This document shows, piece by piece, positions 10,980 to 18,120 of a stretch of 35,618 bases of DNA (the stretch's first letter is position 1; the number at the start of each line of letters is the position of its first letter). The translations under genes and the position numbers were made by a program. The stretch covers positions 1-35,618 of the forward strand of contig CALBFE010000026.1 of assembly GCA_937888825.1 (NCBI GenBank). The letters are read 5' to 3'. The notes under the pieces are model-generated. The model was not told the origin of the DNA, searched no databases, and saw only the letters and a program-made list of their open reading frames with translations. The stretch is from an uncultured Actinomycetes bacterium (GTDB lineage Bacteria; Actinomycetota; Actinomycetes; Nanopelagicales; Nanopelagicaceae).

Positions 10980-12397
10980 ACTTTTAACGTCGGCATTCCT
11001 AGTAATGTCGCCGATCTCTTCTTTTCTTCAATACGGGCAGCGTGAGCATCTCCCCCTCGCGTGGTCCTTACTAAGCCAGGTGTTCCAATTAAGTAGTGCG
11101 CTGATGCTTCGGTGATTGAAACTGCTACCTCATCACCGGGACGTGCCTCAATACTGTTTGAAAAATGTACTAGTCTGAAATCTTCACTGCGCCCAGTCAT
11201 GCGTGCTTGTGCTTCATCTCTGCGACCTTCATAATCGCCCACTAATACTTTGAAATTTTTACCTACTGCTTCTTGATTGACAGATAGTGAAATTGCCTGT
11301 TGATGGTTATGTAAGCGCGTATAACGCTCGCCAACAATTTCTGGTGAAACCTGATCTGGCATTGAAGCTGCCGGTGTTCCCGGACGCTTTGAGTATTGAT
11401 AGGTGTAGGCAGCTGCAAAGCGTGCCTGAGTACAAAGATCCATAGTTGCCTGGAAATCACTTTCAGTCTCACCTGGGAATCCAACAATGATGTCAGTTGT
11501 AATAGCTGCATGTGGCATTGCGCTGCGAACTCGATCAATAATGCCAAGGTAGCGATTGGTGCGATAAGAACGTCGCATCGCTTGCAAAATACTATTAGAA
11601 CCAGATTGCAACGGCATGTGTAGATGTGGCATGACATTAGCTGTGGTGGCCATTGCCTCAATAACATCATCGGTGAAATCACGTGGGTGTGGGGACATGA
11701 AGCGCACCCGCTCTAATCCATCAATCTCGCCACAATCTTTGAGTAAGTTGGCAAAAGCACTTCGATCACCAAAATCAACTCCATAGGCGTTCACATTTTG
11801 TCCAAGCAGTGTAATCTCAATGACGCCCTGATCAACCAAAGCGCGTACTTCATTCAAAATATCCTTCGCACTACGGTCTTTTTCAATTCCGCGCAAAGTT
11901 GGCACAATACAAAAAGTGCAGGTGTTATTGCACCCTACTGAGACTGATACCCAGGAAGAAAATGCTGACAAACGCCTGGCAGGAAGCGTTGATGGGAAAT
12001 GCTCAAGAGATTCAAGGATTTCTATTTGTGACTCTTCTTCAATGCGCGCACGCTCAAGTAAGACGGGAAGTGAGCCGACATTATGAGTTCCAAAGACCAC
12101 ATCCACATAAGGGGCCTTCTTTAAAATTGTTGCCTGATCTTTTTGTGCAAGACATCCCCCAACAGCAATCTGCATATGAGGGTTAGCTTTTTTGATTGGC
12201 GCTAAGAAAGATAAATTTCCATACAATTTATTATCTGCATTTTCTCGCACTGCACATGTGTTGAAAACCACAATATCTGCCTGCACACCCGGCTCAACTG
12301 GAGCGAAACCAGCTTCATCTAACAAACCGGCAATGCGCTCAGAATCATGCACGTTCATCTGGCAGCCGTAAGTTTCAACGGTATAGGTGCGGGTCAT
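10976..12397 (-). CDS. miaB: tRNA-2-methylthio-N6-dimethylallyladenosine synthase
   Basis: A radical-SAM methylthiotransferase acting on i6A37 of tRNA. Residues 1-120 form the UPF0004 domain with cluster ligands Cys12 (YGCQMN), Cys48 and Cys82. The radical-SAM CxxxCxxC is Cys156, Cys160 and Cys163. A C-terminal TRAM domain follows from about residue 375. The length of 473 residues is usual. It heads the miaB-miaA-dapF-hflX operon. The ATG has TACGAT ending 6 bases upstream and no purine-rich Shine-Dalgarno sequence at a normal distance, so a leaderless start is likely. Only 22 bases separate it from the upstream amidotransferase-fold gene. Confidence 0.97.
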
Positions 12398-12403
12398 GCA
12401 CCT

Positions 12404-12409
12404 ATCGTA
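12404..12409 (-). promoter_or_regulatory. -10 element of the miaB operon, leaderless geometry
   Basis: TACGAT on the minus strand ends 6 bases before the miaB ATG. It lies in the 22-base gap after the class II amidotransferase-fold gene, so miaB probably has its own promoter. Confidence 0.45.
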
Positions 12410-12419
12410 ATGGGGGAAA

Positions 12420-13160
12420 TTAGAGGTTGATTACGTCAATCTCAAAGGTTGAACGGTTAACGATGGCAGCATGGTGATTTTCTAAGGTGTGCCAGCCTGG
12501 TTGGTTCCAACCACTTGAAGCAAAGAGAACCCCATCGGCGCTTTTCTTGTATTTGATGACGTAATAGTCATCTGGCGCCCAGTTAGGTTTCTTTGCAGAG
12601 TCATGTTCGCTGCCAACAACAAAGCTCTCATTATTCATCAACATAAAATTAAGGGAAGTTGTCTTGCCGTGTTCTTTAATAATCGCAAGTGTTGTCTTGA
12701 TTCCATCAGCCAGACCAAGCTTTTCTATCTGAGTCATCATGAGATAGAAATAGCGCTCACTATCTGAGTCATCAACTATTAACTTCTTAAACTTCTCATC
12801 TATAAAGTCAGAAAATGAATCTGGCGGAAAAATTGATCCATTATGAATAAATGAATAGTCTCCGTAGACGAATGGGTGAGTGTTGTTCTCGCTTATTGAT
12901 ATGCCTTTAGTTGCCCAACGAAGATGTAGTAACGCCCCATCGGCTGCATTGTCAGCAATTACCTTTTGAAAGGTTGCACTCTCGGCTGCAGCTTCAACTT
13001 TTTTCTCTAGCACTGCATGTGCGTGATGTCTATCATTTGTTGAGATACCCCAGCCATCGCAGTGGACGGATGACAGGGCAATGAATTCTTCAAAATCTTT
13101 ACCCACTTGTGCGGGAAATGAAGATTCGCTCTGCGACACGTAGCCCATAAGACGGCACAT
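12420..13160 (-). CDS. Class II glutamine amidotransferase-fold (Ntn hydrolase) protein
   Basis: A 246-residue stand-alone class II amidotransferase domain of the YafJ/EgtC type (GATase_4-like). The frame is open 22 codons further upstream, but cleavage-type maturation needs Cys at position 2, and MCRLMGYV at 13160 supplies it. Other family features are [16 protein letters not shown] and NTHPF, followed by FIHNGSI. There is no fused synthase domain. It may therefore hydrolyse gamma-glutamyl amides, as EgtC does, and not pass on ammonia. That is inference, helped by the nearby gamma-glutamyl ligase and aldehyde dehydrogenase. TATTCT lies 5 bases before the ATG. The gene is transcribed away from the permease, towards miaB. 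Confidence 0.8.
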
Positions 13161-13272
13161 TTTTGAGAATACCCCTTCCATTTCAGTCACACTCTCGTGA
13201 AGAAAGACTACCTTGGCGCCCCTCACCGAACCAATACCAATCGCACTTTAGGTAACGATGCTTGAAGGGTGA

Positions 13273-13395
13273 ATGGCACTCAAGAAGGAGTACATCTGGG
13301 CAATAACAAATGAGGGTGAAAAACGTTTAGCAGAGCTTGGATATAAGCAAGAGTTAAATCGAAATTGGTCTGTCAACTCTGATCGCCTTACCTGA
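13273..13395 (+). CDS. Possible 40-residue small protein, unknown
   Basis: A 40-codon frame that starts ATG-GCA-CTC and ends TGA. GAAGGG lies 3 bases before the ATG. A five-codon frame (ATG at 13258) ends with TGA overlapping this ATG, so coupling is possible. The peptide is charged and contains ITNEGEKRLAELGY, which resembles the last helix and wing of winged-helix proteins, but it is too short for a full domain. It could be a small protein, the remnant of a regulator, or chance. I do not recognise a family. Confidence 0.3.
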   Translation: MALKKEYIWAITNEGEKRLAELGYKQELNRNWSVNSDRLT

Positions 13396-13434
13396 GTTTT
13401 TTGTCCAAAGATCTCTTCATTCTAAGATTTAGGC

Positions 13435-13557
13435 TTAGTATCTTTTGGCGGCAACCCTGCCTTGCGCGTCGCACATCGCCACTACGACAGTGTCAGTCGC
13501 ACCAACTGCGATTTTGGCTTCAAACTTTGACTTTGGTATGGCAAATTTTGGCTCCAT
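13435..13557 (-). pseudogene. Truncated glutamine synthetase-like N-terminus (40 codons)
   Basis: A minus-strand frame from ATG (13557) to TAA (13435-13437). Its second half reads DTVVVAMCDAQGR, then KRY and stop. The intact ligase at 15397 has DTVVVAMTDMQGR at residues 19-31, then LTGKRI. The match covers the first beta-strand and Gly-Arg-Lys-Arg turn of glutamine synthetase-type ligases; everything after it is missing, and the other frames beyond the stop do not continue the homology. TATTGT (13572-13577) lies 14 bases upstream, so it may still be transcribed. Most likely it is the relic of a second ligase gene; a retained microprotein is the alternative. Confidence 0.6.
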
Positions 13558-13686
13558 GCGCTCATTTTTACACAATAGGGTGAAAAAATCGCCCAAAACT
13601 AGGGGCAAAGGCTTCCAATCGCCTTTTTGCCGCTCTACTCTTATAAAAGACTTCTTCAAAATGAGGCAGCCGTCGAGAGGAAGTTT

Positions 13687-15135
13687 ATGGCGGAAAAAGG
13701 AATGCAAGGAGTTTCATACACCAAAGTATCAAGTGATTACTTTGAGAAACGAGGCTTAGAGCGTCATGCCGGATTACTAGCCCTATGGGGGTTAGGTGTT
13801 GCAGCAGTTGTCTCAGGAGATTTCTCTGGCTGGAACTTTGGTATCGCTGAAGCTGGTTGGGGCGGATTACTTATCGCAACCATCCTCGTAATAATAATGT
13901 ATTACGGAATGTTGTTTTCAATTGGCGAAATGGCAGCAGCCCTTCCTCACACTGGTGGAGCCTACTCTTTTGCCAGATCCTCAATGGGGCCTTGGGGTGG
14001 CTTTGTCACAGGCTTTGCCGAAACAATTGAGTATATTGCAACAACAGCCGTAATTGTCTTCTTCTCCGCATCCTATGCCGACGCAATTACTGAAGAGTTA
14101 TTTGGTCTATCAATGCCAGTATGGGTTTGGTGGATTATTCTCTATGCAATATTCCTACTCCTAAATATCTCAGGATCTGCAATCTCATTTAAGTTTGCAA
14201 TCTGGGTTTCATTTATTGCTCTAGGTGTTGTTGCTCTCTTCGCTCTTATGTCAATATTCAGCGGTAAGTTCTCATTTGATAACTTAACCAATATTGCACC
14301 AGAGGCTGGCAACTCAACTTTCTTGCCAATGGGTATTTGGCCAATTGTGGCGGCCATGCCATTTGCAATGTGGTTCTTCCTAGGAATTGAGGAGCTACCA
14401 CTTGCAGCAGAGGAAGCAAATAATCCAGCAAGAGATATTCCAAAAGCTGGTTTACGTGGTATGGGCACATTAGTTATCTCAGCTCTGTTGGTCTTGGTGT
14501 TAAATCCAGGAATATCAGGCGCTAAAGAGATCTCTGAATCTGGTGAACCATTACTAGATGGCTTTAGAACCCTCTTGCCTAACTCAGATGTAGCAGCAAT
14601 TCTGGCTGCATTTGCCCTAGTCGGACTCTTGGCATCATTGCAAGGAATTATGTTTGCCTACGGACGTAATATCTACTCATTATCTAGAGCTGGTTACTAT
14701 CCAAAGATGCTATCTCTAACTGGATCACGTAAGACTCCTTACACGGCCTTAATCGTTGGTGCCATTATTGGTTATGCAGCACTTTTGTGGGCCCAATACG
14801 GTGGAGAATCAGCAGGTGCGGTAGTGCTAAACATCGCAGTATGGGGAGCAGTAATCGCCTACTTCCTGCAGATGGTTTCCTACGTACTACTTAAGAAGAA
14901 TCTGCCAAATCTCGCTCGCCCTTACAAATCACCAGTAGGACTAGCAGGTGCATTTGTTGCAGGAGCATTGGCCCTTCTGATCTTTGTCGGTCAGGCAATA
15001 AATCCAGCGTTGACAACGGCTATCCAAGCGATTGCAATTGTTTATGTAATTGGATTGGTTGGATTTGGTCTATTTGGACGCAAAAAGCTAGTTCTCTCCC
15101 CAGAGGAGCAGGCCGCTGTGGATGGACACATATAA
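13687..15135 (+). CDS. APC superfamily amino acid/amine permease, ethanolamine permease type
   Basis: A 482-residue inner-membrane transporter with about 12 hydrophobic segments. The N-terminal YFEKRGLERHAG followed by VSGDFSGWNFG is typical of the ethanolamine permease branch (TIGR00908-like) of the APC superfamily. The conserved TM2-TM3 region GEMAAALPHTGGAYSFARSS is intact. The ATG at 13687 is chosen over upstream starts because AGAGGAAG precedes it at the right spacing. It is followed by a strong terminator and then by a ligase and an aldehyde dehydrogenase on the same strand, which suggests import of an amine that is then gamma-glutamylated. Substrate by homology only: ethanolamine first, putrescine or an amino acid less likely. 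Confidence 0.85.
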   Translation: MAEKGMQGVSYTKVSSDYFEKRGLERHAGLLALWGLGVAAVVSGDFSGWNFGIAEAGWGGLLIATILVIIMYYGMLFSIGEMAAALPHTGGAYSFARSSMGPWGGFVTGFAETIEYIATTAVIVFFSASYADAITEELFGLSMPVWVWWIILYAIFLLLNISGSAISFKFAIWVSFIALGVVALFALMSIFSGKFSFDNLTNIAPEAGNSTFLPMGIWPIVAAMPFAMWFFLGIEELPLAAEEANNPARDIPKAGLRGMGTLVISALLVLVLNPGISGAKEISESGEPLLDGFRTLLPNSDVAAILAAFALVGLLASLQGIMFAYGRNIYSLSRAGYYPKMLSLTGSRKTPYTALIVGAIIGYAALLWAQYGGESAGAVVLNIAVWGAVIAYFLQMVSYVLLKKNLPNLARPYKSPVGLAGAFVAGALALLIFVGQAINPALTTAIQAIAIVYVIGLVGFGLFGRKKLVLSPEEQAAVDGHI

Positions 15136-15172
15136 CCAATAGGTGAAGTCAAAAGAGAAAGATAGAAAGTAG

Positions 15173-15204
15173 GTTAAGGGGCTAGCACAGGCTAGCCCCT
15201 TAAC
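15173..15204 (+). terminator. Perfect 14-bp stem-loop after the permease
   Basis: GTTAAGGGGCTAGC (15173-15186), a four-base ACAG loop, and the exact reverse complement (15191-15204). The next bases are TATTTAATAAAT: A/T-rich but not a clean T run. It is the strongest inverted repeat I saw in the window and lies 38 bases after the permease stop, so it probably ends that transcript. Being symmetrical, it could work in both directions. Confidence 0.8.
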
Positions 15205-15384
15205 TATTTAATAAATAGATCAAAATTATAACTATGTGTCGCCGGCTTAGTTACACCTCGAGTTGGCTACCGAGTTCAGTCCCTTGCTAACATTGCCCCG
15301 ACTCTCAATGAGAACTCCAACTTCTGGGGTTCAGTTCAAAGGCAGTAGGGGTTTCTCCTTGTAGATTAAAGTCCAGGAACTAGA
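15205..15384. other. 180-bp interval upstream of the ligase gene, with an orphan open frame
   Basis: No complete gene. The plus-strand frame 15232-15348 is open for 38 codons, reads protein-like (it includes NIAPTLNENSNFWGS) and ends in TAG, but has no ATG, GTG or TTG. It may be the tail of a lost gene. The direct repeat CGAGTT-n6-CGAGTT (15249-15266) could be an operator half-site pair. AGTTGG near 15251 and CCAACT near 15316 can pair. I found no match to a known riboswitch. Because the ligase appears leaderless, this stretch is probably not its 5' UTR. Confidence 0.35.
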
Positions 15385-15390
15385 TAGCAT
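15385..15390 (+). promoter_or_regulatory. -10 element of the ligase-dehydrogenase operon, leaderless geometry
   Basis: TAGCAT ends 6 bases before the ATG at 15397. There is no Shine-Dalgarno sequence before that ATG (the spacer is CCCTTT). Confidence 0.5.
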
Positions 15391-15396
15391 CCCTTT

Positions 15397-16755
15397 ATGA
15401 AATCAATGTCGATTGAAGCGTTAAAAGCAGGCGTAGCCGATGGAACGATTGATACCGTCGTAGTCGCAATGACAGATATGCAAGGCCGATTAACTGGCAA
15501 GCGGATCCACGGTCAGTTCTTTTTAGATGAGGTCCTCAAGCACGGCACTGAAGGCTGTAACTATCTTCTAGCTGTCGATGTCGATATGAATACCGTTGAT
15601 GGGTATGAGATGTCCTCATGGGAACGTGGATACAGCGATTTCGCGTTGGTTCCAGATATGGACACGCTGCGCATGATTGATTGGCAAGAAGGCGCAGCAC
15701 TTGTTCTAGCAGATGTTCAATGGCTAGATCACACAGATGTTGTTGCATCTCCCCGCCAAATACTTCGCAAGCAAGTTAAGGCGCTTAAAGATGCCGGTAT
15801 GGAAGCCATGTGCGGCACCGAGCTTGAGTTTGTGGTTTATAAGGACACATATGAGGAAGCTTGGAACAAGGGCTATAAGAATTTAATTCCAGTGAATCAA
15901 TACAACGTGGATTACTCCATCATGGGTGGATCACGAATTGAGCCGCTCTTGCGCAGAATCCGCCTTGCAATGGCTAAAGCTGGGATGACGGTGGAGTCAG
16001 TCAAGGGTGAATGTAACTTTGGTCAGCATGAAATTGCCTTCAAGTACTCTGATGCACTTTCAAATTGCGATAACCACGTTATTTACAAAAATGGTGCAAA
16101 AGAGATTGCGGCTCAAGATGGATACGCACTAACTTTTATGGCTAAGCCAAATGAAAAAGAAGGTAACTCTTCACACATCCACCTTTCATTCCGTGGATTA
16201 GATGGTTCTCTGGTGATGGCTGATGATTCAGATAAAGAACAGGGCTTAAGTGATCTTGGACGTCAGTTCATCGCTGGCCAGATTGCACATATGCGCGAAA
16301 TGTCTTTGCTCTTTGCTCCAAATATCAACTCTTACAAGCGCTATGTCCCAGGTTCATTTGCTCCAACAGCAATCCGCTGGGGTCGCGATAACCGCACATG
16401 TGCACTGCGCTTAGTTGGAAAGGGCCAAAGCCTTCGCCTTGAAAACCGCGTTGCAGGCGGTGACGTCAATCCATACCTAGCTGTTTCAGGAATTATCGCT
16501 GCCGGACTAGATGGAATTAAGAACAAGATGGTTCTAGAGCCAGCATTTACTGGAAATGCTTACGCTTCCGATTCACAGCGCGTTCCTTCATCAATGAATG
16601 AATCACTTGCGCTATGGGAGGGCTCTGCTTGGGTTAAGGAAACCTTTGGCGCAGAAGTTCAGGCCCACTATGCAAATATGGCCAAGATTGAAATTGCTGC
16701 ATACGGCAAAGCAATCACCGATTGGGAATTAGTCCGCAACTTCGAAAGGTTCTAA
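15397..16755 (+). CDS. Glutamine synthetase-like gamma-glutamyl amine ligase (GlnA4/PuuA type)
   Basis: A 452-residue ATP-dependent ligase that joins glutamate to an amine through its gamma-carboxyl. Active-site residues of the family are visible: metal ligands Glu142/Glu144 (GTELEF), Glu205 and Glu212 (GECNFGQHE), His260/His262 (SSHIH), the NSYKRYVPG loop with Arg315, Arg333 in NRTCALR, and Glu349/Arg351 in RLENR. The NLYDLP adenylylation-site segment of housekeeping GlnA is absent, so it belongs with GlnA3/GlnA4/PuuA ligases. Next to an ethanolamine-type permease and an aldehyde dehydrogenase, ethanolamine is the most likely amine, by comparison with Streptomyces GlnA4; putrescine is the alternative. 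It is six bases upstream of the dehydrogenase gene. Confidence 0.85.
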   Translation: MKSMSIEALKAGVADGTIDTVVVAMTDMQGRLTGKRIHGQFFLDEVLKHGTEGCNYLLAVDVDMNTVDGYEMSSWERGYSDFALVPDMDTLRMIDWQEGAALVLADVQWLDHTDVVASPRQILRKQVKALKDAGMEAMCGTELEFVVYKDTYEEAWNKGYKNLIPVNQYNVDYSIMGGSRIEPLLRRIRLAMAKAGMTVESVKGECNFGQHEIAFKYSDALSNCDNHVIYKNGAKEIAAQDGYALTFMAKPNEKEGNSSHIHLSFRGLDGSLVMADDSDKEQGLSDLGRQFIAGQIAHMREMSLLFAPNINSYKRYVPGSFAPTAIRWGRDNRTCALRLVGKGQSLRLENRVAGGDVNPYLAVSGIIAAGLDGIKNKMVLEPAFTGNAYASDSQRVPSSMNESLALWEGSAWVKETFGAEVQAHYANMAKIEIAAYGKAITDWELVRNFERF

Positions 16756-16761
16756 ACAACA

Positions 16762-18120
16762 GTGTCAACTTCATACGATGTAATCAACCCTGCCACCGAA
16801 CAAATTGTTAAAAATGTTCCCCATTTAGATTTGGAACAAACTGATGCAGTCATCGCAAAGGCTGCCAAGGCTTTCCAGAGCTGGAAAAATGTTGCACCTG
16901 GCGAGCGTGCTCGATTGCTCCGTGCCTTCTCTCAAGTAGTAACTGATCATCGTGAAGAGTTAGCACAGTTAGAAATCACTAATGCGGGTCACACACGGGG
17001 CAATGCCCTCTGGGAAGCTGACAATGTTGCTAACACGCTGATGTATTACTCAGCGGCCCCTGAGCGCTTATTCGGTAAGCAAATTCCAGTTCCTGGCGGA
17101 GTAGATATAACTTTTAAAGAGCCAATTGGTGTTGTCGGAATCATTGTTCCTTGGAACTTCCCAATGCCAATTGCTGGTTGGGGCTTTGCCCCAGCGTTAG
17201 CTGCCGGAAACACCGTTGTTCTAAAGCCTGCTGAATACACACCATTAACCGCAATTCGCCTGGGCGAACTTGCATTACTAGCCGGAATTCCAGAAGGTGT
17301 TCTTAATATCTTGCCTGGTAAGGGAAGTGTTGTTGGAAATCGCTTTGTTACACATCCCCTAGTTCGCAAAGTCGGCTTCACCGGTTCTACCGAAGTCGGA
17401 AAGCAGATTATGGCTGGATGCGCCGATCAGGTGAAGCGCGTAACACTTGAACTAGGTGGAAAGAGTGCCAACGTAATCTTTGCTGATGCAGATATCGAAA
17501 AAGCAACAGCTGGTGCACCTGGTGCAGTCTTTGATAACGCTGGTCAAGATTGCTGCGCACGTTCTCGAATCCTTGTTCAAAAGTCCGCATTCGATAAGTT
17601 CATGGAGCACTTCGAGGTAGCGGTTAAAAAATTCCGTTGTGAAGATCCAAATCTTGCCACTGCTGAAATGGGACCACTGATTTCAAAGAAGCAGTTTGAT
17701 GTCGTTGAGTCTTACCTTGATGAAAAGATTGCTTTCCAAGGGTCAGCGCCATCTGGGCCTGGCTATTGGATGCCTCCAACAGTTTTGCTGCCAAAGAATG
17801 CTCAATCTAAGTCTTGGCGTGAAGAGATCTTCGGACCAGTTGTCTCTGTTCTTACTTTTGAAGATGAAGCAGAAGCAATTGCTTTAGCAAATGATAGTGA
17901 ATATGGATTATCAGGTTCTATTTGGACAAGAGATGTGGGCCGCGCTCTTCGTGTTTCTCGTGCAATTGAATCTGGCGCACTTTCGGTGAATTCAAATTCA
18001 TCAGTACGTTTCTGGACACCATTTGGTGGCTTTAAGCAATCAGGTCTTGGACGTGGTCTTGGACCAGATGCAGTTGATGCTTACACTGAATTAAAAAACG
18101 TATTTATCTCTAACGACTAA
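16762..18120 (+). CDS. NAD(P)-dependent aldehyde dehydrogenase
   Basis: Oxidises an aldehyde to an acid, probably a gamma-glutamylated aldehyde made from the product of the preceding ligase. The family residues are Asn132 in PWNFP, Lys155 in LKPAE, the general base Glu230 in LELGGKS and the nucleophile Cys264 in GQDCCARSR, with EEIFGPV near the C-terminus. At 452 residues it is some 20-40 shorter than typical members, because the loop between SYLDEK and GPGYWMPPTVL is short; the catalytic core is intact. The start is GTG at 16762, six bases after the ligase stop, with a weak AAAGG 12 bases upstream. It ends directly against the convergent amidotransferase stop. Confidence 0.9.
   Translation: MSTSYDVINPATEQIVKNVPHLDLEQTDAVIAKAAKAFQSWKNVAPGERARLLRAFSQVVTDHREELAQLEITNAGHTRGNALWEADNVANTLMYYSAAPERLFGKQIPVPGGVDITFKEPIGVVGIIVPWNFPMPIAGWGFAPALAAGNTVVLKPAEYTPLTAIRLGELALLAGIPEGVLNILPGKGSVVGNRFVTHPLVRKVGFTGSTEVGKQIMAGCADQVKRVTLELGGKSANVIFADADIEKATAGAPGAVFDNAGQDCCARSRILVQKSAFDKFMEHFEVAVKKFRCEDPNLATAEMGPLISKKQFDVVESYLDEKIAFQGSAPSGPGYWMPPTVLLPKNAQSKSWREEIFGPVVSVLTFEDEAEAIALANDSEYGLSGSIWTRDVGRALRVSRAIESGALSVNSNSSVRFWTPFGGFKQSGLGRGLGPDAVDAYTELKNVFISND

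Follow-up and report, generated by a model that had tools for sequence, protein, structure and literature searches.

A 40-codon glutamine-synthetase-like frame as probable debris of a permease swap in an uncultured Nanopelagicaceae genome

The window, the whole stretch of 35,618 nucleotides analysed here, comes from an uncultured actinobacterium of the family Nanopelagicaceae (contig CALBFE010000026.1 of assembly GCA_937888825.1) and contains a gene cluster in which a short open frame faces a permease. A class-II glutamine amidotransferase (AMI; 12420–13226, minus strand; Pfam GATase_4, 2.6e-13) lies at the left. An APC-family permease (13687–15135), a glutamine-synthetase-like ligase (GS; 15397–16755) and an aldehyde dehydrogenase (ALDH; 16762–18120) follow on the plus strand, and all three are intact. 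The 40-codon frame (MEPKFAIPKSKFEAKIAVGATDTVVVAMCDAQGRVAAKRY, followed by the stop) is located on the minus strand at 13435–13557, with its ATG at 13557 and its TAA at 13435, as described in the initial annotation. An Rfam scan of 12300–15500 gave chance-level matches only.

The reference for this region is provided by three loci found in a different genus of the family: L046, from a 'BACL4' MAG, and L047 and L048, which are separate contigs of a single MAG (VGBN01). To judge by the BACL4 name, the family probably corresponds to the freshwater acI group. We refer to them as donor-type loci. Their gene order is ALDH and GS on the minus strand and permease and amidotransferase on the plus strand, with the amidotransferase following the permease. 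In L047 and L048 the complete GS is present and ALDH comes after it, while the L046 contig ends inside GS. Thus the second ligase gene that the initial annotation supposed to have been lost by deletion does exist as a full-length gene in relatives, at the same place and in the same orientation, in a genus other than that of the window. The donor GS diverges from the permease across 130–132 bp, and the gap between the ATG of the frame and the permease in the window is 129 bp.

The frame resembles the N-terminus of GS. A search of the window's genome with the GS N-terminus matched it at E = 3e-4 as the sole other site of this kind, and the frame used as query matched the intact GS of the window at E = 1.6e-4. 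The local BLOSUM62 score between the two is 75 over 27 residues, above the maximum of 50 among 5000 shuffles, which upholds the ligase likeness noticed earlier. The best relative of the frame is nevertheless the GS of the other genus, not the window's own. This match extends over 39 residues from Met1 with 59–62% identity and, for L048, reaches a score of 117 over 39 residues (maximum of 5000 shuffles, 49). As judged from these alignments, the frame is the N-terminus of a second GS-like gene and not a copy of the window's own GS at a distance of 1.9 kb. An origin from the own gene, by duplication of a part of it and inversion, would agree with this short distance and with a match at E ~2e-4, but it was rejected on the alignment scores (117 for the donor, 75 for the own gene), the donor match being both longer and stronger. 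Moreover, the ALDH pieces beside the frame favour the donor ALDH, and the gap and the intergenic sequence agree with those between GS and permease in the donor. We regard such a duplication as extremely improbable. The Pfam scan of the 40-residue product found no family, and it is powerless here because the intact GS itself reaches the N-domain model only below the cutoff. The catalytic domain (PF00120) is absent from the frame in Pfam, the frame ending after 34 GS codons.

Three elements make up the frame: GS codons 1–34, a stretch of ALDH in another frame, and a stop that arose by chance. The GS part (13456–13557, minus strand) is colinear from Met1 with L046 and L048, and 22 of its 34 residues are identical to the GS of these two loci. 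GS homology stops at about 13456 (codon 34). The last six codons are not GS: the tail, VAAKRY and the stop, comes from ALDH sequence outside its own reading frame. The KRY that had been counted as part of the ligase likeness is a coincidental match, because this stretch aligns with the ALDH gene in another frame (13405–13454). Two ALDH pieces come immediately after the GS part, both on the minus strand as in the donor and colinear with its ALDH. Piece 1 (13405–13454; ALDH nt ~1024–1073) is identical to the L048 ALDH at 38 of 44 nucleotides and scores 58 against it, with a shuffle maximum of 28; the alignment with the window's own ALDH scores 44 and reaches 13454. In this piece a Trp codon has become TAG. 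Piece 2 (13376–13409; ALDH nt 1160–1193) is identical to the L047 ALDH at 26 of 34 nucleotides. It scores 40 against the donor, which was reached by none of 2000 shuffles, and 18 against the own ALDH, which is no better than shuffles. The two pieces overlap by a TTTGG repeat that is present at both places in the donor ALDH, and a join of this form would be typical of slippage or microhomology deletion.

To the right of the frame, the sequence continues in donor-type order. The segment at 13558–13686 corresponds to the intergenic (promoter) region from which the donor cassette is divergently transcribed, being 74% identical to the GS/permease intergenic region of L047 (99 of 133 aligned columns). 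The permease that follows shares 88–90% amino acid identity with those of L046–L048 and groups with them in the permease tree with support 100/99. Among all models it matches the ethanolamine permease model TIGR00908 best, with 344.6 bits, under the cutoff of 381.75. It is followed by a segment at 15158–15261 (plus strand), which matches L046 and L048 at 78–79% over 92–102 nt and contains the terminator hairpin of the donor and, in decayed form, the beginning of its amidotransferase gene. The latter is reduced to its first codons, with MCRLLGY changed to MCRRLSY. Of the donor cassette, only the permease is intact in the window. For the next 85 bp (15262–15346), comparison with the donor amidotransferase, the resident permease and the own amidotransferase found no source. 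One frame in this segment weakly resembles the amidotransferase motif LHLRWATE, which suggests a further internal deletion, although the resemblance is only suggestive. Relatives of the window permease also occur at L049 and L052 (80% and 74%), and no GS or ALDH relatives were detected in the available flanking DNA of these two loci; the permease may therefore also travel or persist alone.

The sequences on both sides of this block are native. AMI, at the left border, is up to 95% identical to its counterparts in congeners and 44–50% identical to those of the donor genus. At the right border, 15347–15396 (plus strand) is the native leader of the native GS, with 89% identity over 45 nt to the congener locus L140, where the matching sequence sits just upstream of GS. 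The GS itself is 97% identical to congener GS and 78–80% to donor GS, and the native ALDH is 76–77% identical to donor ALDH. Taken as best identities to the donor genus, the values are 90% for the permease, 80% for the native GS and 50% for the native AMI. The permease is thus nearer to another lineage than its flanking genes are. Between AMI and the ALDH pieces lies a further remnant (13279–13372, plus strand), consisting of the leader and first ~31 codons of the native GABA-type permease that was replaced. It is 86–87% identical in nucleotides to the beginning of the complete permease gene found beside GS in congeners, and a protein match at 13282–13383 (74% over 34 residues) is the only one in the genome. 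The first ~31–34 codons of the resident permease are therefore found at 13279–13383 and nowhere else in this genome. A plus-strand frame of 40 codons is also present at 13273–13395 (MALKKEYIWAITNEGEKRLAELGYKQELNRNWS...), and it is the truncated start of the usual GABA-type permease of the genus.

The distribution within the genus was followed in 135 genomes, the window's genome and 134 others. The usual GABA-type permease occurs, whole or partial, in 66 of the 134, mostly directly upstream of GS, and the window permease in none of them. Matches to the frame are found in 71 of the 135 genomes. The strong ones are GS N-termini, all in long open frames except for a few contig-edge copies, and other short-frame matches are weak only (E >= 0.04). 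At this site the short frame was seen in none of the 134 other congeners, and the conservation that the initial annotation had named as a sign of a kept protein is not found. No genome of the genus was found in the intermediate state, with an intact foreign GS. One congener, G115, was considered as a parallel replacement and rejected, since it is simply without a permease between GS and the amidotransferase. In G115 this permease is gone (L163, G115:C2, ~2444–2667; L164, G115:C13, 1159–1332), and a 57-codon remnant of it lies elsewhere, beside what appears from its sequence to be an IS3-type transposase pair. Literature searches on lateral replacement among these actinobacteria found no publication that deals specifically with this locus.

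The mosaic is known from one genome, and its assembly is fragmented into 108 contigs, as might be expected if two community members had been joined during assembly or binning. The features of the locus argue strongly against such a chimera. The remnants are diverged from every available source, and they contain internal deletions and a nonsense mutation, whereas the sequences joined in a recent chimera would be intact. In addition, neither a full resident permease nor a second GS is present elsewhere in the bin, and both flanks are native. A chimera is accordingly considered highly unlikely.

The GS stub shows relaxed codon constraint, in a small sample of 34 codons. Against L046, it differs at 11, 7 and 14 sites at codon positions 1, 2 and 3, compared with 63, 19 and 163 for the permease; the contrast gives a Fisher p of 0.018 (L046; range 0.018–0.029), based on 34 codons only. 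NG86 dN from the fragment to the donors is 0.26–0.32, compared with 0.09 for these codons between intact donor GS copies and 0.07–0.08 for the permease. The permease itself is probably under selection, which its own codon-position pattern supports. Only 34 of ~450 GS codons are left, while full-length counterparts occupy the same position in L047 and L048. In simulations of random substitution, the 34 codons stay stop-free in 60–82% of cases, and the start codon is also kept in 31–66%. Selection is thus not required to explain an open frame that still has its ATG, as simulated decay often keeps both.

These data bear directly on the proposal that the frame was kept as a 40-residue microprotein poisoning or regulating the assembly of the native GS, as the initial annotation had suggested. 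The N-terminal domain of GS takes part in oligomer contacts. The stub covers part of this domain, and both its ATG and its frame are intact, which would suit such a role. Its 34 GS residues, though, are a fraction of the N-terminal beta-grasp domain, the frame is in no congener, and the six codons at its end derive from ALDH read out of frame. An elevated dN and differences spread almost evenly over the three codon positions indicate relaxed constraint. We therefore do not retain the microprotein and consider it very unlikely. The more specific possibility that the GS stub with its out-of-frame ALDH tail is expressed as a protein from the divergent promoter and modulates the native GS in a dominant manner is less probable still. 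The 40-codon frame is best read as a genomic leftover that documents a transporter swap, and not as a working small protein.

We propose the following history, with a probability of about 0.93 for the whole of it: cassette transfer, permease swap, deletion of passenger genes and a functionless 40-codon frame left behind. A block of a related actinobacterium of the same family, with ALDH and GS on the minus strand and permease and amidotransferase on the plus strand, would have recombined into the corresponding cluster of the recipient, entering between the recipient's own amidotransferase and GS and displacing the resident permease. The foreign permease would have been retained, and the foreign copies of ALDH, GS and amidotransferase would have been removed piecemeal by deletions and decay because they were redundant with the native copies. 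One deletion of ~2.3 kb would have fused GS codon 34 to ALDH codon ~341 and created the 40-codon frame; the size is taken from the distance between GS nt 102 and ALDH nt 1024 in the donors (2295–2299 bp). The earlier idea of a lost second ligase is amended accordingly in its details: the gene would have been laterally acquired, it left 34 rather than ~40 GS codons, and the deletion ran into the next gene. The observed source identities, order and orientation of the remnants, together with the absence of the permease from congeners, underlie this history, from which we infer the direction of the transfer, a single event and the arrival of the whole block. The start codon of the stub and the sequence upstream of it would have survived owing to their position next to the divergent promoter region of the permease that was kept, since this permease probably still needs the shared intergenic region. 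The intact ATG and upstream box, considered odd for old debris in the initial annotation, are unsurprising for the same reason.

The locus is a relic of an ordinary kind, but one whose history can be read unusually well. It would represent the amine or amino-acid utilisation cluster of a small-genome actinobacterium in which the transporter was swapped by importing a relative's cluster and the duplicate enzymes were then deleted, and the swap predicts a changed imported substrate in the window's species. More generally, an open frame that is short, has an intact start and borders a divergent promoter can be what is left of a passenger gene and not a microprotein.

The gene set has a known parallel in the ethanolamine/gamma-glutamylation cluster of Streptomyces, which contains glnA4, an aldehyde dehydrogenase, a putative ethanolamine permease and a glutamine amidotransferase (PMC6529630), and where a comparable gene set serves ethanolamine use via GlnA4 (PMC6529630). 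The donor-type locus likewise has an ALDH, a GS-like ligase, an ethanolamine-type permease and a glutamine amidotransferase. Unlike the Streptomyces cluster, the foreign copy in the window is broken, with the permease, itself below the TIGR00908 cutoff, as sole survivor. Matches to the models of PuuA, the gamma-glutamylputrescine synthetase (NF045547), and type III glutamate-ammonia ligase (TIGR03105) cover most of the window GS, but they stay below both cutoffs (199 versus 650 bits and 230 versus 470 bits, respectively). The locus as a whole resembles relics of lateral replacement (non-orthologous displacement), in that a foreign gene sits inside a native cluster beside foreign genes that are truncated, and the native gene at the junction is truncated as well. 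Nothing essential differs from such relics; what is unusual is that a source can be given for almost every base of the left junction.
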